64,000 nucleotides of DNA from Halomonas binhaiensis. GTDB taxonomy: Bacteria > Pseudomonadota > Gammaproteobacteria > Pseudomonadales > Halomonadaceae. The notes under the pieces were generated by a model. The model did not search any database and was not told where the DNA came from. It saw only the letters and a list, made by a program, of their open reading frames with translations. The DNA is taken from positions 1,364,001 to 1,428,000 of the forward strand of contig NZ_CP038437.2 in assembly GCF_008329985.2 (NCBI RefSeq), read 5' to 3'. Both the position numbers and the translations under genes were made by a program. Below, one piece after another: positions 7,326 through 60,424 of the stretch (its first letter is position 1; each line of letters begins with the position of its first letter).

Positions 7326-10300
7326 ATGCAACATACCGCACAGGATGACAGTCGCGAGGATCTGCTCAAGCAGCTTGAGGAACGGCTCACGGCCGGCCTT
7401 GACGAGAATAAAGTAGAGCGTGTCATCGCCTTTGCTCGTCTCTTCTACGCCAATGCGCCAGTCGAGGACATGGTTGACCGGCGCTTCGATGATTTCTACG
7501 GCGCCACTCTATCGCTGTGGCATTTTCTGCAGCAGTTCGATCCCAGCGCTCCCAAGGTTCGCGTGCTGAATCCCGAGTTCGAAGAGCATGGCTGGCAGTC
7601 CAATCATACCTTCGTTGCTGTACTGCATGAGGATATGCCGTTCCTGGTCGACTCGGTGCGTATCGAGCTCAACCGCCGTGGCATGACCGTACATGCGATT
7701 CATAACGCCGTACTGACAGTGGAGCGTGACCGTCATCATCGCGTCAGCGGACTATCCTCTGCCAAGAATAGCGAGCCTGGACATCGTGAGTCCCTGATTG
7801 CCATCGAAGTGGACCGACACTCCGATCCTGAGGAACTGGCCAGCATCGAACAGAGCCTGCAGGATGCGCTGCAGGAAGTGCGTACTGCCGTGGCCGACTT
7901 CGCTCCCATGAGAGCGAAGGTCACCGAAGCATTGGATGAGTTGAAAGCCTCGCGTCCGAAGCAGATCGATGCGGCCAACCATAAGGAAGCTGTGGCATTC
8001 CTGGAATGGATGCAGGATGAGCACTTCACCTTCCTGGGGTATGACGAGTTCGAGGTGACGGGGCAGGCCGGTAGCCAGCAGCTCAAGCAGACCGAAGGCA
8101 GTGAACTGGGTTTGTTCCGTCTGCAGGATTCTCCGTATCGGCAGCGCATTCGTACCGACCAGGGCGTCGAGGATGGCAAGTTCGTGCTGGTGCCCGAACT
8201 GGTGTCTTTCGCCAAGAGTTCGCAACACTCTCGTGTGCATCGCCCGGCATACATGGACCAGATCACCATCGATCGCTATGACGCCAAGGGCAATGTGGTC
8301 GGCGAGCGCCGCTTCCTGGGCCTGTTCGACTCCAGCGTCTACCACGAGTCTCCACAGCATGTTCCTATCCTGCGGCGCAAGCTCCAGGCGGTCATGGACA
8401 TCGCTGGCTTCGATCCCAAGGGCCACACCGGCAAGCAGCTGTTGCATAACCTGGAAGTTTATCCACGTGATGATCTGTTTCTGATCGATACCGATGAATT
8501 GACCCAGACGGCGCTGGGCATCGTCGATATTCGTGAACGCCGCAAGGTCCGCCTGTTCATCCGCGAAGAACTTTTCGGTCGCTTCTATTCTGTGCTGGTG
8601 TTCGTACCTCGGGATGTGTTCTCCACGGAGCTGCGTGTCCGCCTGCAGGAATTCCTGTGCGAGGAGCTGGATGCCACTTTCGGTGACTTCAACACCTACT
8701 TGTCGGAGTCGGTGCTGGCGCGCATTCAGTTCATCCTGCGCTTCAATGGCGATGCACCAGTGGAGTACGATCTCAAGGCGCTGGAGGCCAAGCTGACACG
8801 GATGGCGCGTAACTGGCGCGATGATCTGCTCAATGCCGCCATCGATAGCTATGGTGAGGAGCAGGCCAATAATCTCATGCAGCGTTTCCGCGATGCCTTC
8901 CCGGCCAGCTATCGCGAGGACTTCAACGCGCGCACCGCCGTCTATGACCTGCAGCACATTGGCGAGCTGGATGAGGGCAATACGCTGGCCCTGTCGCTGT
9001 ATCGCCTGATCGAAGAAGAAGGCAGTGGCGTCAATCTCAAGCTGTTTCACAAGGGCGCACGCATCCCGCTGTCTGACGTGTTGCCGATGATGGAAAACCT
9101 GGGCCTGCGAGTGCTGGGAGAGCGTCCCTACGATCTGCATGCCACGGATGCCGGGTACTGGGTCCATGACTTCGACCTGGAGCACCATACCGCGACCGAG
9201 GTCAACCTGCAGGAGATGCGAGCGCCTTTCATCGAGGCTTTCCAGCGCATCTGGGCCGGTGAGGCAGATAATGATCGTTTCAACCGCCTGATTATCGGTG
9301 CCAACCTGGATTGGCGTGAAGTCGCGATGCTGCGTGCCTATGCACGCTATCTCAAGCAGATTCGCTTTGGTATCTCCCAGGACTTCATTGCCAATGCACT
9401 GGCCAGCTATCCGCATATCACCCGCGAGTTGGTCACCCTGTTCGAGTTGCGCTTCGACCCGGAAGAGCGACCGGCCGAAGGTGAGGTCGATGCTTGCCTC
9501 GAACGCATCAACGGCATGCTCGATGAGGTGGCCAGCCTCAACGATGACCGCCTGCTGCGTCGTTATGTGGAACTGATCCAGGCTACACTGCGTACCAACT
9601 ATTACCAGCGCACCGCGGATGGCGCCATCAAGGACTACATGTCCTTCAAGCTGGAGCCTTCCAAGATCACCGGAATGCCCAAGCCGCGCCCCATGTTCGA
9701 GATCTTCGTCTGCTCTCCTAGGGTCGAAGGTGTACACCTGCGTGGCGGCAAGGTGGCTCGCGGAGGCTTGCGCTGGTCGGATCGTCACGAGGACTTCCGC
9801 ACAGAGGTGCTGGGGCTGGTCAAGGCTCAGCAGGTCAAGAACTCGGTCATCGTGCCGGTAGGGGCCAAGGGCGGTTTCGTCTGCAAGCGCATGCCGGAAG
9901 GAGCTGATCGTGAGACGGTGCAGAAGGAAGGCATCGCCTGCTACCAGACATTCATTCGCGCCCTGCTCGATGTCACTGACAATCTGGTCGCTGGTGATGT
10001 GGTGCCGCCCAGGGATGTCGTGCGTCACGATGAGGATGATCCCTACCTGGTGGTGGCAGCGGACAAGGGCACAGCGACCTTCTCCGATATTGCCAATGCC
10101 ATCTCCATCGAGTATGGCCATTGGCTGGGTGATGCCTTCGCCTCAGGTGGTGCCAATGGCTATGACCACAAGAAGATGGGAATTACCGCCAAAGGGGCCT
10201 GGGAGTCGGTCAAGCGCCATTTCCGCAGCCTCGGCGTGAACACCCAGAAGGATGAGTTCACCGTGGTGGGTGTCGGTGACATGGGGGGGGATGTGTTCGG

Positions 10301-12164
10301 TAATGGCATGTTGCTGTCCAAGACCATCCGCCTGGTGGCAGCCTTCAACCACCTGCATATCTTCATTGACCCGAACCCGGATGCGGCAGCGACTTTCAAG
10401 GAACGTCAGCGCATGTTCGAGCTGCCGCGCTCGACCTGGGAAGACTTCGACAAGTCACTGATTTCTGAAGGTGGTGGCGTGTTCTCTCGTGCCGCCAAGT
10501 GGATTCCCATCTCTGCTCAGATAAAGGAACGCTTTGGCATCAGCGAGGACCGCCTGGCGCCCAATGACCTGATTCAGGCACTGTTGCGTTCACAGGTCGA
10601 TCTGTTGTGGAACGGTGGCATCGGCACTTACGTCAAGAGCAGTGCAGAAACCGATGCCGATGTGGGTGACAAGGCCAATGATGCCCTGCGCATCAATGGT
10701 TGCGAGCTGAACTGCCGCGTAGTGGGTGAGGGTGGCAACCTGGGCTTGACCCAGCGTGGACGCATGGAAGCTGCGGCCAAGGGTGTCCGGGTCAATACCG
10801 ATTTCATCGACAATGCGGCTGGCGTCAACTGCTCCGACCATGAGGTCAACATCAAGATCCTCATCGATGAAGTCGTGGCCAACGGTGACATGACCGACAA
10901 GCAGCGCAACAAGCTGCTGGCGGAAATGACCGATGAAGTCAGTGAACTGGTGCTGATCAGCAACTATCGCCAGAGCCAGTCTCTGGACTTGTCCGAGCTG
11001 CTGTCCCATCAGGGAATCGGTCCGTATCGTCGTTTCATCAGTGAGCTGGAAGCCGCAGGCCAGATCGACCGGGAGCTGGAGTTCCTGCCTTCGGATGAGG
11101 ACCTCCAGGAGCGCGCAGCCAACGATCAAGGAATGACTCTGCCCGAGCTGTCAGTGCTGATCAGCTATGCCAAGAGCGCGCTCAAGGGTGACTTGATCGC
11201 CTCTGATGTGCCTGATGACACGATTGTGGCGCAGCATGTCGAACGAGGCTTCCCCAAGGTGCTGCTCGAGCGCTACCACGACCAAGTCTACAACCATCGC
11301 CTGAAACGCGAGATCGTATCGACTCAGCTGGCCAATGATCTGGTCGATCATATGGGTATCGTGTTTGTACGTCGCCTGGTGGATTCCACTGGTGTCGGGC
11401 GTGCCGATGTTGCACGTGCCTACGTGATCGCTCGCGAGTGCTTCCAGTTGCCGCGTCTGTGGGATCAGATCGAAGCGCTGGACAACAAGGTGCCGACCGG
11501 TATCCAGTACTCCATGATGCTGGACCTGATGCGCATGATTCGTCGCGCTACCCGCTGGTTCCTGCGTCTGCGTTCTGCCATGTCGGCAGCGGATTGCATT
11601 GCCTATTTCGCACCACGTATTGCCCAATTGCAGGAAAAGGTCGGCCAGCACCTGCGTGGTGAAGAGCAGGAGGCCTGGGAAGCCCGTCGTCAGGAACTGG
11701 TGGCTGCCGGTGTACCTGAAGCGCTGGCATCCGCGGTTGCCGCTGCCGGTAGCTTGTATGCTGCACTCGGTATCATCCAGACGGCTCGTCAGGTCGATGA
11801 GAAGCCACAGAAGGTTGCCGAGGTGTACTACGAAATCGGTGCTCGCCTGGAATTGCCCTGGATGATTCAGCAGGTGACGGCGTTGCCGGTCAAGGATGGT
11901 TGGCAGTCCCAGGCGCGTGAAGCGTATCGTGATGACATCGAGCGACAGCAGATGGCACTCACTGCAAGCGTGTTGCAGATGGAAGGTGGTGCTCGCGAAA
12001 CGTCGGCACGCGTCGACCAGTGGATAACCAACCACTCCAGCATGCATGAGCGCTGGTGCCGCCTGGTCAATGAAGTCAATGGTGGTACTCCGGCCAGCTT
12101 CCCGCTGTTTGCCGTGGCGGTGCGTGAATTGGTCGATCTGGCAGAAAGCAGTCGTGAAGCATGA
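7326..12164 (+). CDS. gdhB: NAD-specific glutamate dehydrogenase, large (180 kDa) type
   Basis: Catabolic enzyme that oxidises glutamate to 2-oxoglutarate with NAD+. The 1612-residue length fits the L-GDH180 family (Pseudomonas GdhB is about 1620). N-terminal ACT-like regulatory region up to about residue 600, then the catalytic core with GGKVARGGLRWSDR (about residue 805), the PVGAKGGF substrate segment and the GVGDMGGDVFGNG dinucleotide site, then a long helical C-terminus. A TGAGGT-like site lies before the ATG. The gene stands alone, with a 220-base leader and a palindrome after the stop. Glutamate turnover is central in halophiles, but nothing in the sequence shows how it is regulated. 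Confidence 0.96.
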   Translation: MQHTAQDDSREDLLKQLEERLTAGLDENKVERVIAFARLFYANAPVEDMVDRRFDDFYGATLSLWHFLQQFDPSAPKVRVLNPEFEEHGWQSNHTFVAVLHEDMPFLVDSVRIELNRRGMTVHAIHNAVLTVERDRHHRVSGLSSAKNSEPGHRESLIAIEVDRHSDPEELASIEQSLQDALQEVRTAVADFAPMRAKVTEALDELKASRPKQIDAANHKEAVAFLEWMQDEHFTFLGYDEFEVTGQAGSQQLKQTEGSELGLFRLQDSPYRQRIRTDQGVEDGKFVLVPELVSFAKSSQHSRVHRPAYMDQITIDRYDAKGNVVGERRFLGLFDSSVYHESPQHVPILRRKLQAVMDIAGFDPKGHTGKQLLHNLEVYPRDDLFLIDTDELTQTALGIVDIRERRKVRLFIREELFGRFYSVLVFVPRDVFSTELRVRLQEFLCEELDATFGDFNTYLSESVLARIQFILRFNGDAPVEYDLKALEAKLTRMARNWRDDLLNAAIDSYGEEQANNLMQRFRDAFPASYREDFNARTAVYDLQHIGELDEGNTLALSLYRLIEEEGSGVNLKLFHKGARIPLSDVLPMMENLGLRVLGERPYDLHATDAGYWVHDFDLEHHTATEVNLQEMRAPFIEAFQRIWAGEADNDRFNRLIIGANLDWREVAMLRAYARYLKQIRFGISQDFIANALASYPHITRELVTLFELRFDPEERPAEGEVDACLERINGMLDEVASLNDDRLLRRYVELIQATLRTNYYQRTADGAIKDYMSFKLEPSKITGMPKPRPMFEIFVCSPRVEGVHLRGGKVARGGLRWSDRHEDFRTEVLGLVKAQQVKNSVIVPVGAKGGFVCKRMPEGADRETVQKEGIACYQTFIRALLDVTDNLVAGDVVPPRDVVRHDEDDPYLVVAADKGTATFSDIANAISIEYGHWLGDAFASGGANGYDHKKMGITAKGAWESVKRHFRSLGVNTQKDEFTVVGVGDMGGDVFGNGMLLSKTIRLVAAFNHLHIFIDPNPDAAATFKERQRMFELPRSTWEDFDKSLISEGGGVFSRAAKWIPISAQIKERFGISEDRLAPNDLIQALLRSQVDLLWNGGIGTYVKSSAETDADVGDKANDALRINGCELNCRVVGEGGNLGLTQRGRMEAAAKGVRVNTDFIDNAAGVNCSDHEVNIKILIDEVVANGDMTDKQRNKLLAEMTDEVSELVLISNYRQSQSLDLSELLSHQGIGPYRRFISELEAAGQIDRELEFLPSDEDLQERAANDQGMTLPELSVLISYAKSALKGDLIASDVPDDTIVAQHVERGFPKVLLERYHDQVYNHRLKREIVSTQLANDLVDHMGIVFVRRLVDSTGVGRADVARAYVIARECFQLPRLWDQIEALDNKVPTGIQYSMMLDLMRMIRRATRWFLRLRSAMSAADCIAYFAPRIAQLQEKVGQHLRGEEQEAWEARRQELVAAGVPEALASAVAAAGSLYAALGIIQTARQVDEKPQKVAEVYYEIGARLELPWMIQQVTALPVKDGWQSQAREAYRDDIERQQMALTASVLQMEGGARETSARVDQWITNHSSMHERWCRLVNEVNGGTPASFPLFAVAVRELVDLAESSREA

Positions 12165-12240
12165 CGCTGCCAGACTGGCCGCAAGGCATCACGTCGTGAT
12201 GCACATATGATGTGAGTTGCAGTGAGTGCGAATTGCAATG

Positions 12241-12270
12241 CAGTACGGATTGCGAGGCAGTACGGATTGC
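12241..12270 (+). repeat. Short direct repeat after gdhB
   Basis: CAGTACGGATTGC occurs at 12241-12253 and again at 12258-12270 (17-bp period). A related AGTGAGTGCGAATTGC precedes it. Confidence 0.8.
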
Positions 12271-12280
12271 AATATCGAAA

Positions 12281-12363: not shown

Positions 12364-13209
12364 CTAGCCTCCCAGCTGTTGAATCTCCTGCTTGTCGATC
12401 TCCAGGTCATCCATACTGTCTGGCACGGCCCCCTGGTTGATTTGGGCGATAGCGGCGGCGGCACGCTCCAGTACAGGCAGGCATTCCAGTGCTCGTTGCC
12501 GATCCATACGCATGATCGGAGCCTGAATCGCCAGGCCGACATTGGATACACCGCTGGGGTTGGGAGCTAGCACGGCGATACACAACAGTCCGGGAAGAAA
12601 CTCTTCGTCATCGAAGGCGTAGCCTTGCTGCCTGACCTGCTCAATCTCGATTTCGAGGGCCTTGATATCCGTAATGGTATTGCGGGTAAAGGAGGACAAA
12701 GGCACTTCTGCCAGCAGGCGGCGACGCTGGGCCGGGCTCATCTGGGCCAGGAATAGCTTACCGCTGGCAGAGCAGTGCGCCGGTACCCGAGAGCCTGGGT
12801 GCAGATAGAAACGCAGGGGGGCGGATGTCTCGACACGATCGAGATAGAGAACCTCTGCACCTGCCAAAGCCGTGATGTTGCAGCTCTCTCCGACTTCCCT
12901 TACCAACTCCGCAAGAACCGCGTGGCGGGCTCCCTGAACGGTATCGTTGAGCAGGAGCGTTTCTGCCAACCGGCGCAGTCGGGTGCCTTTGCTGTAGTGG
13001 CGATTGTCGGCTTCGCGCTGGAGCATCCCGGAGTTTTCCAGTTGCTGAAGCATGCGATGCAGCGTTGGCTTGGGCATGCCCGTTTCGTCGACGAGGCTCT
13101 GCAACGTGAAGTACTGATCCTTTTCAGCAATGACTTCAAGCAGAGCCAGCAACCGCTGGGCCGGTGTGTCTCCTTCGATGCTTCGGGCATCCAAACGCGA
13201 TGTGGTCAT
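12364..13209 (-). CDS. IclR-family regulator, likely controlling xsc and neighbours
   Basis: 281-residue repressor/activator with an N-terminal winged helix (residues about 15-75, TLQSLVDETGMPKPTLHRMLQ) and an IclR effector domain (GESCNITAL, LHPGSRVPAHCSASGKLFLA, YAFDDEEFLPGLLCIA). The ATG at 13209 has GGAGG 8-9 bases upstream; the frame extends 29 codons further but without support. It is divergent from xsc over a 261-base AT-rich region containing TTTCGAAAAA-type sites, also found before the CobS-like and tauX genes. The effector is probably a taurine or sulfoacetaldehyde derivative; this is inferred from context only. Known taurine regulators are usually MocR/GntR-type TauR, so an IclR here is less common. 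Confidence 0.9.
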   Translation of the reverse strand: MTTSRLDARSIEGDTPAQRLLALLEVIAEKDQYFTLQSLVDETGMPKPTLHRMLQQLENSGMLQREADNRHYSKGTRLRRLAETLLLNDTVQGARHAVLAELVREVGESCNITALAGAEVLYLDRVETSAPLRFYLHPGSRVPAHCSASGKLFLAQMSPAQRRRLLAEVPLSSFTRNTITDIKALEIEIEQVRQQGYAFDDEEFLPGLLCIAVLAPNPSGVSNVGLAIQAPIMRMDRQRALECLPVLERAAAAIAQINQGAVPDSMDDLEIDKQEIQQLGG

Positions 13210-13268
13210 GGTGGTGTCCTCCCTGAATCCAGAGTCTATCCGTTTCTGAAAAGAAATCAATTTGTACC

Positions 13269-13356
13269 GTTTTTCGAAATTTATGTTGACGGCCATGTAT
13301 GGCTAGTCTAATTTTTGACCATGTTTCTAATAACGAGACATTTAGTACCGAAAAAT
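13269..13356. promoter_or_regulatory. Candidate operators in the iclR-xsc divergent region
   Basis: Three elements resemble the GTTTCGAAAAAT repeat found at 19290-19345. On the minus strand ATTTCGAAAAAC covers 13280-13269. On the plus strand GTTTCTAATAAC (13323-13334) and GTACCGAAAAAT (13345-13356) start exactly 22 bp apart, the same step as in the other cluster. An imperfect palindrome (ATGTTTC/GAGACAT, 13321-13341) overlaps the first plus-strand site. Confidence 0.6.
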
Positions 13357-13470
13357 GGTTTTTGCAGAGTGGCAGGAAGCACCTGCAGCCTTGCATTCAC
13401 GAAGAATCTTTAGACGAGCTTCCGGATGAACCTTTCACAAGGCGTCCATGGAGGCGTTCCTGGAGGAGCT

Positions 13471-15294
13471 ATGAACCACAACCACAATAACGGCGACAAT
13501 CGCCAGGTCGTTCAAGGCAAGCAGAAGATGACACCCTCTGAAGCCTTTGTTGAAACCCTTGTCGCCAATGGTGTCACCGACATGTTCGGCATCATGGGAT
13601 CTGCATTCATGGATGCCATGGATATCTTTGCTCCTGCTGGCATTCGTCTGATTCCCGTGGTCCACGAGCAAGGCGCGGCACATATGGCCGATGGTTATGC
13701 CCGTGTATCAGGACGCCATGGGGTGGTGATCGGTCAGAACGGACCAGGTATTTCCAACTGCGTGACCGGCATTGCTGCTGCCTACTGGGCGCATAGTCCG
13801 GTGGTGATGATTACGCCTGAGACCGGTACCACCGGCATTGGCCTGGGCGGGTTCCAGGAATGCAATCAGCTGCCGATGTTCCAGGAGTTCACCAAGTATC
13901 AGGGCCATGTGACCAACCCGGTACGCATGGCCGAGTTCACCGGCCGCTGCTTCGATCGCGCCATGTCCGAGATCGGGCCTACGCAGCTGAATATTCCGCG
14001 CGACTATTTCTATGGCGAAATCGAGGCAGAGATTCCCGAGCCTCGTCGTGTCGACCGTGGCCCGGGCGGCGCCCAGTCCCTGGATGAAGCTGCGGCACTG
14101 CTGGCCGAAGCCAAGTTTCCCGTCATTGTTTCTGGTGGTGGCGTGGTCATGGCCGATGGCGTCGAGGAGTGCAAGGCGCTGGCTGAGCGACTGGGGGCAC
14201 CTGTGGTCAACAGCTACCAGCACAATGACTCCTTCCCGGCGAGTCATCCTCAGTGGTGTGGCCCGCTGGGGTACCAGGGCTCCAAGGCTGGCATGAAGCT
14301 GATTTCTCAAGCAGATGTTGTGTTGGCGCTGGGCACACGACTGGGACCCTTCGGCACCTTGCCGCAGCACGGCATGGACTACTGGCCGAAGGAGGCCAAG
14401 ATCATCCAGGTCGACGCTGACCACAAGATGCTGGGGTTGGTGAAGAAGATCTCCGTAGGTATCTGCGGTGATGCCAAGGCAGCGGCCATCGAACTGTCCA
14501 GGCGCCTCGAGGACAGAACACTGGCCTGCGATGCGACCAAGGATGAGCGCCTGGCCAGAATCAAGGCAGAGAAGGATGCCTGGGAGAGGGAACTGGATGA
14601 ATGGACCCACGAACGTGACCCATTCAGCCTCGACGCCATCGAGGAGGCCAAGGAAGAAACGCCATTCTCCGGTGGCCAGTATCTGCATCCACGCCAGGTG
14701 CTGCGTGAGCTGGAGAAAGCCATGCCAGAGGATGTGATGGTGTCGACCGACATCGGCAACATCAATTCTGTGGCGCATAGCTACCTGCGCTTCGAAAAGC
14801 CTCGCAGCTTCTTTGCCCCCATGAGCTTTGGTAACTGTGGCTATGCATTGCCCACCATCATTGGCGCCAAAGCAGCGGCTCCGCATCGTCCGGCCATTGC
14901 CTATGCCGGCGACGGTGCCTGGGGCATGAGCATGATGGAAACCATGACCGCGGTGCGTCACGAGATTCCGGTGACGGCGGTGGTCTTCCACAATCGTCAG
15001 TGGGGAGCCGAGAAGAAGAACCAGGTCGACTTCTACAACCGGCGCTTCGTTGCGGGGGAACTGGACAACCAGAGCTTCGCCGAGATTGGTCGTGCCATGG
15101 GGGCAGAAGGCATCACCGTGGATCGTCTCGAGGATGTGGGGCCGGCACTGAAGAAAGCCGTGGACATGCAGATGAATGAAGGCAAGACCACCATCATCGA
15201 AATCATGTGTACTCGTGAGCTGGGCGATCCCTTCCGTCGCGATGCGCTCAAGAAGCCGGTGCGTCTGCTGGAAAAATACCAGGACTACGTCTGA
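13471..15294 (+). CDS. xsc: Sulfoacetaldehyde acetyltransferase
   Basis: Thiamine-diphosphate enzyme that converts sulfoacetaldehyde and phosphate to acetyl phosphate and sulfite, the desulfonation step of taurine and other C2-sulfonate degradation. 607 residues from the ATG at 13471, which has GGAGGA 5 bases upstream; an open extension of 15 codons has no such support. The three TPP domains are visible: N-terminal Pyr domain with the HEQGAAHMADGYAR catalytic Glu segment, a central domain, and a C-terminal PP domain with GDGAWGM at about residue 480 and a metal-binding Asn near FHNRQWG. Pta follows and uses its product. Confidence 0.95.
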   Translation: MNHNHNNGDNRQVVQGKQKMTPSEAFVETLVANGVTDMFGIMGSAFMDAMDIFAPAGIRLIPVVHEQGAAHMADGYARVSGRHGVVIGQNGPGISNCVTGIAAAYWAHSPVVMITPETGTTGIGLGGFQECNQLPMFQEFTKYQGHVTNPVRMAEFTGRCFDRAMSEIGPTQLNIPRDYFYGEIEAEIPEPRRVDRGPGGAQSLDEAAALLAEAKFPVIVSGGGVVMADGVEECKALAERLGAPVVNSYQHNDSFPASHPQWCGPLGYQGSKAGMKLISQADVVLALGTRLGPFGTLPQHGMDYWPKEAKIIQVDADHKMLGLVKKISVGICGDAKAAAIELSRRLEDRTLACDATKDERLARIKAEKDAWERELDEWTHERDPFSLDAIEEAKEETPFSGGQYLHPRQVLRELEKAMPEDVMVSTDIGNINSVAHSYLRFEKPRSFFAPMSFGNCGYALPTIIGAKAAAPHRPAIAYAGDGAWGMSMMETMTAVRHEIPVTAVVFHNRQWGAEKKNQVDFYNRRFVAGELDNQSFAEIGRAMGAEGITVDRLEDVGPALKKAVDMQMNEGKTTIIEIMCTRELGDPFRRDALKKPVRLLEKYQDYV

Positions 15295-15322
15295 ACCATG
15301 GGAATGACCCTGCGTTGATATT

Positions 15323-15346
15323 GCCCCGGCTCTGTGCCGGGGCTTT
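15323..15346 (+). terminator. Hairpin between xsc and pta
   Basis: 8-bp GC stem GCCCCGGC (15323-15330) with 15336-15343, loop TCTGT, followed by TTTGTCT. The T-run is short, so it may lower rather than stop transcription into pta, or help set mRNA ends. Confidence 0.65.
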
Positions 15347-15458
15347 GTCTGCAGGATAGGTCTTGTACGAAAGTAGCCGTGCTGGCCGGCTTTTCGTACA
15401 CAGCCTGAGGCAATTGCCTTGAGGGCCCTGACATGAAGACAAGCCGGAGCGAACAACA

Positions 15459-16475
15459 ATGAAGGCACTGAACCATATTCGTGACATGGCAAGGGCTGCG
15501 CCACGCCGGATTGTACTGTGTGAAGGCGAAGATCGCCGGGTGTTGGAAGCCGCCGTGCGAGCAACGCAGGAAGGCTATGCAGAGATCCTGCTGGTGGGAG
15601 ACAGCGAGCGCATCAAGGCCCGAGCAGAAGAAGAGCACCTTGAACTAGGTGCTGTCTCGCTGATCGATCCACGTGTCTCGCAATATACCGAAACATTGGC
15701 TGAGCACCTGTTCCAGTTGCGCGAAGCCAAGGGCATGAGTCGGGAACAGGCGCGCGCGAGCGTGCTGGAACCACTGATATTCGCCAACCTGATGGTCAGT
15801 ACTGGGCTGGCGGATGGTAGTGTTGCCGGCGCAGTGAACACCACGGCTGATGTGGTGAGAGCCGCCATTCAACTGATTGGCAAGGCGCCGGGGGTGACCC
15901 TGGTGTCGAGCTTCTTCCTGATGATGCTGTGCAAGCCATTTCATAATCTCAAGGGCGGGATGATCTTCTCGGACTGTGGGCTGGTGGTGGATCCGAATGC
16001 CGATGAACTGGCACAGATCGCCATGGCGGCTGCCGACAGTGCCGAAGCCTTGCTTGATGAGCCGGCAAGAGTCGCGATGCTGTCATTCTCGACCAGTGGC
16101 AGTGCCCGGCATGCCTCTGTGGATAAAGTGATCCAGGCAGCCCGCAAGGTGAAGGGGTTGCGCCCACAACTGGCCATCGATGAAGACGTACAACTGGATG
16201 CCGCGATTGTCGCCGAGGTAGCGCAACGCAAGTTACCTGATTCCAAGGTCAAGGGGCAGGCCAATGTGCTGGTCTTCCCTGAACTCGAGGCAGGCAACAT
16301 CGGCTACAAGCTGGCAGAGCGCATTGGCGGAGCAGAAGCGATCGGGCCGCTGTTGCAAGGGTTGGCCAAGCCGGCCAATGACCTGTCTCGGGGATGCAGC
16401 GTGGAGGACATCATCAATGTCATTGCCGTGACCACTGTCCAGGCACAGCGACAGTCACCATTGGCCACGGAGTGA
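15459..16475 (+). CDS. pta: Phosphate acetyltransferase
   Basis: Short (338-residue) Pta that turns acetyl phosphate into acetyl-CoA in the cytoplasm. It has the PTA_PTB fold throughout, with VLCEGEDRRVL at the start, PLIFANLMVSTGLADGSVAG near residue 105 and the FSTSGSA and LVFPELEAGNIGYK motifs. It lacks the N-terminal DRTGG domain of the 700-residue E. coli enzyme, like other Pta proteins paired with Xsc. It lies 164 bases after xsc in the same direction, so it most likely channels Xsc acetyl phosphate into acetyl-CoA. No ackA is seen nearby. Confidence 0.94.
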   Translation: MKALNHIRDMARAAPRRIVLCEGEDRRVLEAAVRATQEGYAEILLVGDSERIKARAEEEHLELGAVSLIDPRVSQYTETLAEHLFQLREAKGMSREQARASVLEPLIFANLMVSTGLADGSVAGAVNTTADVVRAAIQLIGKAPGVTLVSSFFLMMLCKPFHNLKGGMIFSDCGLVVDPNADELAQIAMAAADSAEALLDEPARVAMLSFSTSGSARHASVDKVIQAARKVKGLRPQLAIDEDVQLDAAIVAEVAQRKLPDSKVKGQANVLVFPELEAGNIGYKLAERIGGAEAIGPLLQGLAKPANDLSRGCSVEDIINVIAVTTVQAQRQSPLATE

Positions 16476-16489
16476 GGTAAGGGTAGGAG

Positions 16490-16507
16490 GGCGGTCCGAG
16501 CACCGCC
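16490..16507. terminator. Small hairpin between convergent pta and the VWA gene
   Basis: GGCGGT (16490-16495) pairs with ACCGCC (16502-16507). There is no clear T-run on either side, so terminator function is only suggested by its place between convergent genes. Confidence 0.4.
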
Positions 16508-18235
16508 TTAGCGATGCTGTTTTACCAGCAGAAGAGCGATTTCCTCGGCCAGGGCATTATCCAGTGTCTGGGCCAGGTCGATAATTCGGTGCTGGCGATA
16601 GTAGGGGCTCAGGTCCAGGCCTACGCCGAGCCCGCTTATCTCTACCTGGCCAGGACGATCATAGTGTTCGACCACGGCTTGAAGATGGTTGTCCAGGTAG
16701 TGGCGGTCGTTGGCCAGGTGGGTAGCGCTGTCCGATGGGCTGCCGTCGGACAGCACCACCAGTAGACGCCGTTTGACGTCTGCACTGAGCAGCCGCTGGC
16801 AGGCCCATTCCACGGCTTCTCCATCAATGCCTTCCTTGTACAGGTCTGCCTTGAGCAGAGCACCGAAGGCTCGTCGTGCCCGACGCCAGGGTTGTGCCGC
16901 GTGCTTGAATACCAGATGACGGACTTCATTGAGGCGGCCCGGTGCTTCGGGGCGCCTGGCCTTGAGCCAGTCCTTGTGGGCTCGTCCTCCATTCCAGGTT
17001 GTCGTGGTGAAGCCCAGCACTTCGGTGGCGATGCCTGCCATGTCCAGAGCTCTGGTCATTAGTTCGACGAGAACTGCAATGGCCTCCCCGTGAGCCTTCA
17101 TGGAACCGGAACAGTCAATCAGGAAACTGACCTGGGCATCCCCCTGCGGGTGATAGCGCTCGCGCTGGAACAGGCGGCGTTCCATGGGAGAGGCAACGAC
17201 CTGAGCCAGGCGCCGGCCATCAATAACGCCGCTTTCCTCTCCGTGCTGCCAACCATCCCTGTCCGGTTGGGTCAGGGTATTGCGAAAGAAGCGTGCCAGG
17301 CGGCGTACATTGATGCGTTGGTCGGAAATCCGTCGGTCGAGACGTTGGCGATACTCTTCGAGCAGGACAGGCCGGACCAGGGTTTCGGCTTCCAGCTCAC
17401 GGTCGTAGGCCAGGGTGAAGGCGCGGTAACGGCGGCGATGATGCTCAAACAGTCGACTGTGCCCACTGGGTGCCAGAGCAACCGGTTCGTCGATATCGTC
17501 TTCGCCATCCAGCAACAAGGCCAGCCGGCGCCTCGGGTCCTGCTCTTCCTGATCCCGCTCGTCCTGGGCATCGAAGCCGGACAGCTGATGATCAATCCAG
17601 TCGGCAATGGCACGCGCATGCTTCTGGAAAGCCTTCTGGTGATGACGTTCTCGGCGCAGTCCCGCCAGGGCATGGCCCAATGCAGGAACGATGGAGGCTC
17701 GTGTGGCTTCGATGAGATCCTCGATTTCCCCGATCACTGGCTGGGCCATGAGACGCGACCAGCAGATCTGTATCAGGCAGAACAGCAACAGTCCCAGGGC
17801 CGTCTCGGTAAGCTGGGCGTGATGGAAGGCCAATGACCAGCGCTGGAATCGCTGGCGCAGATTATGGCTCATGCCCGGGCTTTCTGCCGTGGCCAGCGCC
17901 TCCACTCTCAACTGTTCCAGCAGGTCATAGATCAGGCGTGCCTCTGGCCCTTCAGGGCGCAGTTCTTCATGCAACTGAGCATCGCTATGGCGCTGTCGCA
18001 TCGCCATGGCATCACTGACCGCTCGATAGTCCGGCGCATCCAGGGAATGGATGTCGAGGCGCAGGTGCGGGGCACGCAATGCCACTCGGGAAGTACCTTG
18101 ATGCAGGAGCCGGCTGCGATAGTGCCATGACCGGTCTGCGCTCAAGGCACGTAATGTCGCTGCTTCCAGCTCCTCCAGATACTGCTGTCGACGGCGCTGC
18201 CCGGGTGGCTGATCGAGAGCGGACGATTCGTTCAT
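16508..18235 (-). CDS. CobT-like VWA-domain protein, partner of the AAA+ ATPase
   Basis: 575-residue cytoplasmic protein of the CobT (cobaltochelatase subunit) family. The N-terminal and middle parts are helical and very rich in Arg and acidic residues, with an acidic stretch near residues 220-255. The C-terminal VWA domain has a complete MIDAS start, DCSGSM from D374, and a later LSDGSPSD. Its start overlaps the stop of the upstream AAA+ gene by ATGA, so the two are translationally coupled. No CobN large subunit or other cobalamin gene is present. The pair lies between pta and tauXY and shares the TTTCGAAAAAT-type upstream sites. Cobalt insertion is thus unlikely; a MoxR/VWA-type maturation role for a nearby enzyme is my inference. 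Confidence 0.85.
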
Positions 18236-19227
18236 GCTCCCGCCTCGCTATCGTTGATCACTGACTCTTCCAGCTCCTCATCAAAGCAGCGCTGGTAGAA
18301 CTCGGCGACCAGAGCACGCTCGTGCTCATCGCACTTGTTGAGGAACGACAGGCGGAAGGCCAGGGCAGGATCACGAAATATCTCGCAGTTTTCCGCCCAG
18401 GTGATCACGGTGCGAGGTGACATCAGCGTCGACAGATCGCCATTGGCAAAGCCTCGGCGAGTCAGTTCAGCCACAGCGACCATGGCGTCGATGTGTCGCC
18501 GTCCACGCTCAGTGTCCTTGCTGGGTACTCGGGCCAGCACGATCTTGACCTCTTCGTCGCGAGGCAGGTAATCCAGCTTGGCAACAATGTTCCAGCGGTC
18601 GACCTGGGCATGGTTGAGCATCTGGGTGCCATGATACAGGCCGTCCTGGTTGCCCAGGCCCAGAGTATTGGCTGTAGCGAACAGGCGAAACATGGGGTGA
18701 GGCTGGATGACCCGATTCTGGTCCAGCAGAGTGAATTGACCATCGCGCTCCAGAATACGCTGGATGACGAACATGACGTCAGGCCGGCCAGCATCATACT
18801 CATCGAAGATCAGGGCGACTGGGCGTTGCAGGGACCAGGGCACGATACCTTCCTGAAACTCGGTAACCTGAACACCATCGCGTATCACGATAGCGTCCTT
18901 TCCCACCAGGTCCAGACGACTGATATGACCATCCAGGTTGACCCTGACACAGGGCCAGTTCAGGCGCGCTGCGACTTGCTCGATATGGGTCGACTTGCCG
19001 GTGCCGTGCAGCCCTTGGACCAGCACCCGGCGATTTCGTGTGAAGCCGGCGAGTATCGCCAGAGTGACATCAGGGTTGAAACGGTAGGCGTCGTCAACGG
19101 CAGGGACATGGTCATCACGCTCGTCGAAAACCGGCACCTGCAGGCTTGATTCAATGCCGAACAGTTCCTTGGCACTGCGATAGTGCCGGGAAGGGATGCC
19201 ATCAAGGGAGAGAGATGCATCGGCCAT
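18232..19227 (-). CDS. CobS/MoxR-like AAA+ ATPase
   Basis: 331-residue AAA+ ATPase of the CobS branch of the MoxR group. Walker A GLHGTGKS at residues 72-79, Walker B LIFDEYD at 139-145, a sensor-1 segment [11 protein letters not shown], and an Arg-finger/helical lid toward the C-terminus. A GGAGG lies 11 bases before the chosen ATG at 19227; the frame runs on upstream through the operator repeats, so longer starts are unlikely. It is the first gene of a two-gene unit with the VWA protein. Such pairs remodel metalloenzymes or dehydrogenases in known systems. Its divergent neighbour tauX and shared operator sites point to a role in sulfonate use. Confidence 0.88.
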
Positions 19228-19289
19228 GGTGTGGTCATCCTCCAGGGCTGAATGGAGCGGAAATGGAACGCTGCTGTCAGGATAATCAT

Positions 19290-19345
19290 GTTTCGAAAAA
19301 TATCTCAAACTGTTTCGAAAAATATATAAATTAGTTTCGAAAAAT
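19290..19345. promoter_or_regulatory. Three operator-like repeats at exact 22-bp spacing
   Basis: GTTTCGAAAAAT occurs identically at 19290-19301, 19312-19323 and 19334-19345. The start-to-start step is 22 bp, about two helical turns, so bound proteins would sit on one face of the DNA. The bases between copies 1 and 2 are also similar (ATATCTCAAA and ATATATAAAT). The array lies about 60 bp upstream of the CobS-like start and about 185 bp upstream of tauX. Related sites are in the iclR-xsc region. Confidence 0.8.
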
Positions 19346-19528
19346 GAGATTTGTATTTTCTGTCGTGAGGCTGCCCGGAGCGGCAGGCGGGCGCATAACG
19401 GCCTGAGGCAATGAGAAGACGGCCAGGATATGGCTGGTCCAAGAGATGGCGGACAACTGGTGCTAAGCGGCATGACCTGCGCGGTCGTAGGCTCGATGGT
19501 GTCGAATCAATAACAATGGAGACCCCTC

Positions 19529-19921
19529 ATGAGCCAACCTGATGCCCAATTCCTGGCGGATTTCAGTGCCGCCCTCAACCGTCATGACATCGATGCCGTG
19601 ATGGAGATGATGACCGACGATTGTGAATTCCATGCCGTGGCAGGACCTGAACTGCTGGGCAAGAGCTTCATTGGCAAGGACGCGGTTCGTGCTGGCCTGC
19701 GTGCGGCCTGGGAGAATGCAGCGGATGCCGAGTGGGTCGATGGTGTGCATGTGGTGATCGGTGATCGAGGCTATAGCGAGAGTACATATCGCGGTACTAG
19801 CGCAGACGGCATGCGTTCAGAAGCTCGCATGATCGATGCCTTCACCTTCCGGGATGGCAAGATTGCCGTAAAGAACGCCTATCGCAAGCAGCGTCCGGCA
19901 ACCCCCGTCCAGGGCGCCTGA
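19529..19921 (+). CDS. tauX: Probable taurine dehydrogenase small subunit (NTF2/SnoaL-like fold)
   Basis: 130-residue protein with the NTF2-like cone fold pattern: FLADFSAALNRHDIDAVMEMMTDDCEFH at the start, a central GKDAVRAGLRAAWE helix and a C-terminal FTFRDGKIAVKNAYRKQ strand. GGAG precedes the ATG. It stands 43 bases before a FAD oxidoreductase of about 480 residues, and the two sizes fit the small and large subunits of TauXY taurine dehydrogenase. That enzyme oxidatively deaminates taurine to sulfoacetaldehyde, the substrate of Xsc encoded 4 kb away. The fold alone does not give the function; the assignment rests on the partner gene and the xsc-pta context. Confidence 0.6.
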   Translation: MSQPDAQFLADFSAALNRHDIDAVMEMMTDDCEFHAVAGPELLGKSFIGKDAVRAGLRAAWENAADAEWVDGVHVVIGDRGYSESTYRGTSADGMRSEARMIDAFTFRDGKIAVKNAYRKQRPATPVQGA

Positions 19922-19964
19922 TACGGCGACACGATCATTCTGGCCAGGAAGGAGGAAGATCATC

Positions 19965-21407
19965 ATGTTGGATGTGCAGCCCAGCGTCTCGCCGGCACAT
20001 AGTGAACGTGCCACACCGGCCCAGACACCTTACGACCCTGCCTATGACCCCTTGACCACGCCTCGGACAGGAAGCGGCTGTGACTATGCTCCGACCTACT
20101 GGATCGGCACGGCGGGCGAGCCGCCGGCGGATGATGGACCCATTGAAGCCGATATTGATGCGGACGTGGTGATCATCGGCTCGGGGTTCACTGGCCTGAC
20201 AGCGGCGATCTTCCTTGCTGAGCAATACGGCATCAAGGCTACCGTGCTTGAGGCCAATCGCGTTGCCTGGGGATGCAGTACCCGCAATGGCGGCCAGGCC
20301 CAGTGTGCTTCGGGACGCTTGAAGCGTTCCCAGTGGATCGAGCGCTACGGACTCGACACGGCACTTGGCCTGCATCGTGAATGCGTGAATGCCATGCAGA
20401 CATTCAAGTCACTCATCGCAGATATCGAGTGTGACCCTCAGCCAGGGGGACACCTCTATATCGCCCACAAGCCCCGGATGATGCCCGGGCTTGAGAAGGA
20501 GGCGCGGCTGCTACGCGAAACCTTCGACTACGATGCACGTATCATCGACGCAGACAGCGTGCGGCGTGAATGGGTGGATGACAAGGAAGCGGCTGGCGCC
20601 ATGCACGAACCTGAGGGTATCGGCATTCATGCGGGCAAGCTCGCGTTTGGTTATCAGCGCAAGGCTCGTGCCTTGGGCGTCAAGGTGCATCCTGCCAGTC
20701 CAGTATTGGGTTGGGAGAGTCGCGATGACGTGCATTACCTGCGCACTCCTGGTGGTGTGGTCAAGGCGCGTGCAGTCGGCATCGCGACGGGGGGATATAT
20801 CACGGGGCAGCTGCACCGGTCGCTCAAGAATCGGCTATTGCCGATACTCTCCAATTCCATTGTGACCCGCCCGTTGAGCGAGGCGGAAATCGAGGCCACA
20901 GGCTTCCGTACCCGCCAAGTGCTGACCGATACCCGGATTCTTCGCCACTACTATCGCTTGCTACCGGATAACCGGGTACAGATCGGTAGCCGTAGTGCCA
21001 TTACCGGGCGTGATGCCCCCAAGCAAAAATATGAAGCGATGTTGATTGGTGACCTGGAGCGCAAGTTTCCGGCATTGGCTGGCATCGATATCGATTATTC
21101 CTGGTGGGGCTGGGTTGATGTCAGCCATGACATGATGCCGCGTATCCACCAGCCGGATCCTCGTGAAAGCATCTACTATGCACTGGGCTACGGCGGTAAT
21201 GGCGTGATGTACTCGGCCCAGGCAGGCAAGCGCCTAGCGCAATGGATCGCAGGAGAGAGCGCGAGTCTGGATCTGCCGATCTTCACCTCGACGCTGCCTT
21301 ATCCCAACTTGCTCGAGAAGGTCGAATCCGAGGCATTGGCACCGTTTCGGCGCCTGGGGCAACGCTGCCTGTATCGCTGGTATCAGCTGAAGGACGAGGT
21401 ACTGTGA
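19965..21407 (+). CDS. tauY: Probable taurine dehydrogenase large subunit (FAD, DadA-like)
   Basis: 480-residue flavoprotein of the D-amino-acid/glycine oxidase (DAO) family. FAD ADP-binding motif VVIIGSGFTGLTAA near residue 68, the STRNGGQAQ segment typical of DadA/PuuB-like enzymes, a middle substrate domain, and a C-terminal GYGGNGVMYSAQAGK FAD-closing motif. No signal peptide or membrane anchor is seen. With the small NTF2-like gene just upstream it matches the TauXY pair, which passes electrons to cytochrome c. An alternative is a gamma-glutamylputrescine oxidase-like (PuuB) enzyme; the nearby xsc and pta make the taurine reading better. Confidence 0.65.
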   Translation: MLDVQPSVSPAHSERATPAQTPYDPAYDPLTTPRTGSGCDYAPTYWIGTAGEPPADDGPIEADIDADVVIIGSGFTGLTAAIFLAEQYGIKATVLEANRVAWGCSTRNGGQAQCASGRLKRSQWIERYGLDTALGLHRECVNAMQTFKSLIADIECDPQPGGHLYIAHKPRMMPGLEKEARLLRETFDYDARIIDADSVRREWVDDKEAAGAMHEPEGIGIHAGKLAFGYQRKARALGVKVHPASPVLGWESRDDVHYLRTPGGVVKARAVGIATGGYITGQLHRSLKNRLLPILSNSIVTRPLSEAEIEATGFRTRQVLTDTRILRHYYRLLPDNRVQIGSRSAITGRDAPKQKYEAMLIGDLERKFPALAGIDIDYSWWGWVDVSHDMMPRIHQPDPRESIYYALGYGGNGVMYSAQAGKRLAQWIAGESASLDLPIFTSTLPYPNLLEKVESEALAPFRRLGQRCLYRWYQLKDEVL

Positions 21408-60046: not shown

Positions 60047-60424
60047 ATGACGCCAAATATGCTCAGTACCATTCCGGTACTTCAAGTCGAGAACGCAGCA
60101 CGTAGCTGTGACTTCTACTGCGGCAGGCTAGGTTTCGAAAAGGACTGGGAGCATCAGTTTGAACCCGGCATGCCATGGTTCGTGTCCGTCAGCAGAGGAG
60201 AGGTTACCTTGTTCCTCACCGAGCATCCCGAGAGCGCTGCCGGGGCGCTCGTCTACCTGATTGTGGAAGCCGTTGATGCCCTGGCCCAGGAGTTTCAGGC
60301 CAACAAGGTAATGCTGGAACAAGAGCCTGTGACCCAGCCTTGGGGAATGCGCGAAATGCAGTTAAAGGATCCGGATGGCAACCGACTGCGTTTCGGGCAG
60401 GATATGGAGGACGGAGAGGTCTGA
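60047..60424 (+). CDS. VOC-family protein (bleomycin-resistance-like)
   Basis: 125-residue vicinal-oxygen-chelate protein with IPVLQVENAARSCDFYCGRLGFEKDW at the start and WGMREMQLKDPDGNRLRFGQ at the end. ATG 60047 has GGGAGTG upstream; an earlier GTG at 60041 is possible. It lies 42 bases after dctM and may be the last gene of that operon. Some members bind drugs, others catalyse dioxygenase or isomerase reactions; this one cannot be placed further. Confidence 0.85.
   Translation: MTPNMLSTIPVLQVENAARSCDFYCGRLGFEKDWEHQFEPGMPWFVSVSRGEVTLFLTEHPESAAGALVYLIVEAVDALAQEFQANKVMLEQEPVTQPWGMREMQLKDPDGNRLRFGQDMEDGEV

Follow-up and report, generated by a model that had tools for sequence, protein, structure and literature searches.

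A CobS/CobT-like AAA+/VWA gene pair linked to one subgroup of sulfoacetaldehyde acetyltransferase in Halomonas binhaiensis and many unrelated bacteria: a candidate remodeling machine

The 64-kb stretch of the Halomonas binhaiensis chromosome analyzed here (the window; G000:C1:1364001-1428000 of a 4.9-Mb genome in a single contig) encodes, beside the gene for the thiamine diphosphate (ThDP) enzyme sulfoacetaldehyde acetyltransferase (Xsc), a CobS-like AAA+ ATPase and a CobT-like VWA protein. Our analysis shows that this gene pair is linked to Xsc across many loci, that it accompanies one Xsc subgroup (here, subgroup A), that it is separate from the CobST of cobalamin synthesis, and that its motor and metal ion-dependent adhesion site (MIDAS) motifs are intact. 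On this comparative evidence, we think it probable on balance that the pair is a dedicated AAA+/VWA remodeling machine for subgroup-A Xsc and neither a cobaltochelatase nor a maturase of the taurine dehydrogenase TauXY.

The gene order in window positions 12364-21407 is iclR(-), xsc(+), pta(+), cobT-like(-), cobS-like(-), tauX-like(+), and tauY-like(+), so the placement of the pair between pta and the tauXY-like genes in the initial annotation is borne out. Its ATGA coupling is likewise seen as an overlap of the cobS-like stop with the cobT-like start. The same holds for the complete motifs reported there: Walker A (GLHGTGKST) and Walker B (LIFDEYD) of the CobS-like protein and the MIDAS (DCSGS, T, SDG) of the CobT-like protein are intact by reading, and CobT residues D374, S376, S378, T410/T411, and D497 do not vary in an alignment of 20 CobT sequences that includes the one from the window. 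For the CobS-like protein, M82 of the listed open reading frame (ORF), at 19227 with GGAGG upstream, is the probable true start. The pair represents the sole CobS and CobT of the genome; a second CobS match (26% identity in a partial alignment, E = 9.7e-5) was taken as another AAA+ gene.

For the survey of neighborhoods, 112 pair loci were collected, comprising 80 loci from GTDB genomes (the best 80 of 591 relatives), 4 from plasmid records, 26 from Halomonadaceae, and two more; L014 and L126 are the same contig, counted twice. After subtraction of seven AsnO-type loci (see below) and one locus that is cobalamin-type by tree (L079), 104 Xsc-type loci remain, and 85 of them have an Xsc of more than 60% identity within the fetched flanks, which is not an unbiased rate because the 80 genome loci are those whose CobS is closest to the query. 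Besides the AsnO-type loci and L079, the 27 loci without Xsc include 19 of the Xsc type, and for 17 of these Xsc is encoded elsewhere in the genome (in two pieces for L012, partial for L136); none was found in the genomes of L018, a metagenome-assembled genome (MAG), or L134, where the pair stands at a contig start. In the MAG of L012, Xsc matched as two overlapping pieces (G889:C8:16629-18379). Contig ends truncate many of the flanks, and neighbor absences are therefore lower bounds. In the 85 Xsc-bearing loci, xsc and the pair are divergent in 44, convergent in 34, and on the same strand in 7, three of the latter reading xsc-cobS-cobT with gaps of 99 to 183 bp. Because the gene order varies in this way, the linkage has been kept through rearrangement. 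The first-pass ORF clusters were mechanical, and some genes labeled "x" in them are spurious; neighborhood cluster 2 might have been a mix of ThDP enzymes, which we dismiss, since its 86 aligned members share 75 to 100% identity with the window Xsc (over fewer than 130 residues in a few cases), two short ORFs giving no alignment to it. A subfamily found mostly beside cobN or unrelated genes would have spoken against the dedicated role in C2-sulfonate catabolism that the initial annotation had proposed; with Xsc in 85 loci and CobN in none of the 112, the linkage strongly supports that role.

Two further gene families recur near the pair, each in 16 loci. One to three Lin0512_fam (PF09585) genes follow cobT in 16 of the 112 (L012, L013, L015-L017, L019-L021, L091, L124, L125, L128, L132, L134, L135, and L199). 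A ThiO-like FAD (flavin adenine dinucleotide) oxidase gene occurs mostly between cobS and tauX (L012, L015, L118, L120-L125, L127, L129-L133, and L136).

The presence of the pair follows the subgroup of Xsc. A TIGR03457 match occurs in 22 of the 369 genomes of the class sample and in 27 of the 398 of the phylum sample, giving 47 distinct genomes, 12 with subgroup-A Xsc and 35 with other Xsc. Subgroups were typed by identity and, for full-length sequences, also by a tree of 121 Xsc; sequences shorter than 575 residues were excluded from the tree and typed by identity only, and those of G210 and G692 are partial. CobS was typed by tree or, in 13 genomes, by best match. The Xsc-type pair is present in 10 of the 12 subgroup-A genomes versus none of the 35 others (Fisher P = 1.3e-8, shared ancestry being ignored). 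In eight of the ten the pair is on the Xsc contig, within about 30 kb, and in G415 and G197 it is on other contigs. A cobalamin-type CobS is found in 27 of the 35 other genomes, and 8 have no CobS. Within Halomonadaceae (151 genomes), all 19 genomes with Xsc (18 above the cut-off) have the pair, as does a 20th, G123, where it stands at a contig start.

The pair is homologous to CobS and CobT of cobaltochelatase and combines, as they do, an AAA+ protein with Walker A/B motifs and a VWA protein with a MIDAS. The matches to solved structures are strong (E = 3.5e-140 for CobS 9ujv and 7e-77 for CobT 9uka in the PDB), and sources label such proteins "cobaltochelatase CobT-related" or "cobalt chelatase." Nevertheless, both window proteins score below the NCBIfam equivalog cut-offs, at 519 bits against 558.55 for CobS (TIGR01650) and 298 bits against 759.05 for CobT (TIGR01651). 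Five other Xsc-type pairs gave 407 to 541 bits for CobS and 203 to 335 for CobT, and one AsnO-type pair gave 421 and 293; four cobalamin-type pairs gave 563 to 712 for CobS, all above the cut-off, and 610 to 1165 for CobT, two of four being under it. The window CobT-like protein also lacks the acid-rich linker present in the cobalamin-type CobT of L273 and L276.

Trees of 133 CobS and 128 CobT sequences, rooted at the midpoint and excluding L126, L136, and CobT ORFs shorter than 480 residues, contain three groups: Xsc-type, cobalamin-type (16 sequences), and AsnO-type of Halomonadaceae (7 sequences). The split that parts the cobalamin and AsnO types from the Xsc type has a support of 1.0 for CobT and 0.63-0.69, which is moderate, for CobS. 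Among 18 Xsc-type and 15 cobalamin-type sequences chosen for comparison, mean CobT identity is 45% within the Xsc type and 29% across to the cobalamin type, and the corresponding CobS values are 68% and 61%. CobT is thus far more diverged than CobS between the types, as would be expected had the adaptor changed its client. The third, AsnO type (L137-L143, in 7 of 151 Halomonadaceae genomes) stands beside genes for asparagine synthase, Transglut_core3, NTP_transf_5, and ABC transporter proteins, domains read from the representatives L140 and L143; the locus resembles what we take to be a lasso-peptide cluster.

Of the 43 genomes with the Xsc-type pair that were searched for CobN/ChlH (PF02514, E up to 1e-50), a subset of all such genomes found, 26 gave no match, six of these 26 being single-contig; five of the seven AsnO-type genomes do have a match. 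The initial annotation had reported neither cobN nor other cobalamin genes in the window. The cobN part stands, the only PF02514 match of the H. binhaiensis genome lying outside the window at C1:1770118; other cobalamin genes were not individually searched for. The CobN gene of this genome adjoins its own gene for a 654-residue ChlI-ChlD-like fusion, in an operon with what we take, by reading, to be CobB-, CobW-, CobG-, CobH-, CobI-, and CobJ-like genes. This fused AAA+/VWA gene of the cobalamin operon lies at L009:8238-10202, where its listed ORF overlaps a CbtA-like gene. As described in parts of PMC9227772, ChlI and ChlD are able to substitute for CobS and CobT as cobaltochelatase subunits.

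If the pair serves Xsc, it would presumably contact the enzyme and remodel it, in a maturation or reactivation role. Precedents come from passages on CbbQO, in which an AAA+ motor works with a VWA adaptor that uses its MIDAS to bind an acidic residue of Rubisco and the C terminus of the client is important (PMC4660213), on NorQD, in which AAA+/VWA twisting serves metal insertion (PMC13036017 and PMC9976466), and on MoxR/VWA pairs in general (PMC6987120). By analogy, the CobS-like hexamer would be the motor and the CobT-like protein the adaptor, attached to an acidic side chain of Xsc through its MIDAS; hydrolysis of ATP would then open the Xsc active site, and the machine could clear or reload a ThDP site that sulfite had damaged or dead-end inhibition had blocked. 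Xsc converts sulfoacetaldehyde to acetyl phosphate and sulfite (stated in part of PMC5320631), and thiamine is cleaved by sulfite (likewise in part of PMC8839250). Because sulfite is released beside ThDP, damaged cofactor or dead-end adducts may become trapped in the enzyme, which leads to our proposal of cofactor repair. As the most likely purpose of the machine, repair is a tentative suggestion, and its explicit form, in which subgroup-A Xsc is pulled open, sulfite-cleaved ThDP or a dead-end adduct is ejected, and fresh cofactor is admitted, is one that we regard as possible but doubtful. As a handle for such a machine, we considered the subgroup-A linker of Xsc (392-424) and the C terminus, and neither appears to be discriminating, both being nearly shared by the two CobST-free members. 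Clients of CbbQO-type activases carry a terminal motif that is confined to activase-linked forms. Among 87 subgroup-A rows the C termini are DYV (80), DFV (5), DYL (1), and DYT (1); the two CobST-free subgroup-A members end in DYM and DYV, and one B member ends in DFV.

Several observations, besides the choice of loci and the moderate CobS support mentioned above, weigh against a dedicated machine for Xsc. (i) The pair is not absolutely needed: subgroup-A Xsc is encoded without any CobS match in G192 (96% complete) and G333 (87%), which belong to the same genus, and only L75 and G544 separate the rest of subgroup A from these two members. (ii) Other Xsc subgroups work without the pair despite the same sulfite chemistry, and cofactor repair does not explain how they manage. 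(iii) In the CobT tree, the midpoint root leaves five Xsc-type sequences (L199, L091, L067, L054, and L089) on its cobalamin side. (iv) Xsc does not stand out in the correlation of pairwise distances across 29 loci: the partial correlations with CobT are 0.43 for Pta, 0.17 for Xsc, and 0.15 for TauY, and those with CobS are 0.39 for TauY, 0.34 for Pta, and 0.15 for Xsc.

Instead of clearing inhibitors, the pair might load Xsc or a partner with a specific metal, in the manner of NorQD (metal insertion is described in PMC13036017 and PMC9976466). CobW-type GTPase genes occur in 14 of the 112 loci and were not found in the other 98. Cobaltochelatase likewise inserts a metal, which counts for this alternative; Xsc is an Mg/ThDP enzyme that is not known to have a special metal, which counts against it, and we judge it unlikely.

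Another protein of the regulon, namely Pta or its Ptb-like counterpart, the IclR regulator, or a transporter, could also be the client. Pta shows the highest partial distance correlation with CobT, and the 85 Xsc loci include Pta in 48 and an IclR gene in 67 (70 of all 112). However, 20 of the 85 carry the Ptb-like enzyme, a PF01515 protein of another subfamily, in place of Pta, and in the remaining 17, which have neither, Pta is out of view; a client of this kind seems to us quite improbable.

The initial annotation had named TauXY or Xsc as the client; the linkage supports Xsc and disfavors TauXY, whose cofactor loading or maturation by the pair we hold to be very unlikely. TauY is encoded in 55 of the 112 loci, it has the partial distance correlation of 0.39 with CobS, and the 20 Halomonadaceae genomes that encode it are those that have the pair, so that this family alone cannot separate the two clients. 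Across the wider set, TauY is present in 47 of the 85 loci with Xsc and CobST and absent from the fetched flanks of the other 38. In Streptomyces L075, alanine dehydrogenase and class-III aminotransferase genes stand instead beside xsc-pta and iclR-cobS-cobT, and Amycolatopsis L072 resembles it by reading; conversely, the alphaproteobacterial locus L279 (17.6 kb) has tauABC-tauXY-xsc-pta without CobST. AMP-ligase and aldehyde dehydrogenase genes, in loci that we take to be sulfoacetate-like, occur in 7 of the 85, three of which also have TauY, and 34 have neither TauY nor these genes. Finally, that the pair is an ordinary cobaltochelatase CobST placed in the taurine locus by chance is hardly credible, even though the genome has CobN with neighboring cobalamin genes, and we reject it on the sub-cut-off scores, the separate branch, the linkage to Xsc across phyla, the 26 of 43 searched genomes and the 112 loci in which no CobN was found, and the fusion beside the genome's own CobN.

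Features of the window locus are collected in Table 1. The window Xsc scores 1070 bits against TIGR03457 (cut-off, 676). No NCBIfam model named TauX or TauY matched the window SnoaL and DAO proteins, which we take to be TauX and TauY.

Table 1. Genes and putative regulatory boxes of the window locus (window coordinates)
Feature	Position	Strand	Basis
IclR-family regulator	12364..13296	-	PF01614, PF09339
xsc, ThDP-dependent sulfoacetaldehyde acetyltransferase of subgroup A (proposed client)	13426..15294	+	TIGR03457, tree of 121 Xsc
pta, phosphate acetyltransferase	15459..16475	+	PF01515, TIGR00651 above cut-off
CobT-like VWA protein, 575 aa, MIDAS intact	16508..18235	-	PF11775, PF06213
CobS-like AAA+ ATPase, 331 aa from M82 (probable start) of ORF 18232-19473	18232..19227	-	CobS_N PF12556 + AAA_5
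tauX-like small subunit (SnoaL domain)	19529..19921	+	PF12680 (SnoaL_2)
tauY-like FAD (DAO) taurine dehydrogenase large subunit	19965..21407	+	PF01266 (DAO)
Three TTTCGAAA boxes, 22-bp spacing, cobS/tauX divergent promoter region	19290..19342	.	motif count
Fourth TTTCGAAA box, between iclR and xsc	13272-13279	.	motif count

The sequence TTTCGAAA has five copies in the window versus 0.53 expected, and none of 100 shuffles reaches five. The copies start at 19291, 19313, and 19335 in the cobS-tauX gap, at 13272 in the iclR-xsc gap, and at 60133. Shared repeats had been taken as a sign of co-regulation; here they are indeed common to the iclR/xsc and cobS/tauX gaps, but they are not general in relatives, where at least two copies occur in only 4 of the 112 loci and the xsc-iclR gap holds a single copy in three places. 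Being so rarely repeated, TTTCGAAA is rejected as a conserved operator. A 17-nucleotide unit is present in three tandem copies at 12225-12275, between the convergent 3' ends of iclR and a large ORF (7326-12164) that is NAD-glutamate dehydrogenase-like by reading.

A link between CobST and Xsc was not described among the open-access papers that the literature searches listed, older subscription papers on Xsc being outside their range. No paper in the open-access collection searched joined "sulfoacetaldehyde acetyltransferase" and "cobaltochelatase," and the main text of the TauR regulon paper (PMC5320631) contains neither cobS nor ATPase. Passages of PMC4334477, PMC12879404, and PMC2265553, papers in which both cobS and taurine occur, do not connect the two; the first lists Ruegeria CobS (SPO2853) separately from its taurine genes, and cobS/cobT in the other two are other cobalamin enzymes. 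On our reading, a gene pair that is widespread and currently annotated as cobaltochelatase would have to be reassigned, the few AAA+/VWA systems with known clients would gain one whose client is of a new class (a thiamine-dependent lyase), and one Xsc subgroup would be predicted to lose activity when expressed without its helper. If cofactor repair is true, it would be, to our knowledge, the first such AAA+ machine for a thiamine enzyme.

Compared with known systems, the pair is closest to CobS/CobT of cobaltochelatase CobNST, with which it shares CobS_N plus AAA+, the CobT N-terminal domain plus VWA MIDAS, and adjacent genes; it differs in its branch, its scores, the missing acid-rich linker, and its linkage to xsc instead of cobN, which is often absent from the genome. 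Like NorQ/NorD, which carries out FeB insertion into nitric oxide reductase, it is an AAA+/VWA pair beside one linked enzyme, which in that system needs the pair for activity; however, the homology is weak (NorQ, E = 5e-4 against the window CobS-like protein), the NorQD client is a membrane metalloenzyme, and no metal role is indicated for Xsc. The Rubisco activase CbbQ/CbbO (MoxR AAA+/VWA) is also only distantly homologous (CbbQ, E = 2.5e-7 and 1.1e-6 against the same protein), and the putative client here is a ThDP enzyme. In its organization, the CbbQO system offers a parallel: in both, an AAA+ motor gene is followed by the gene for a VWA/MIDAS adaptor beside the enzyme served, here presumably Xsc, and the pair follows particular forms of that enzyme.

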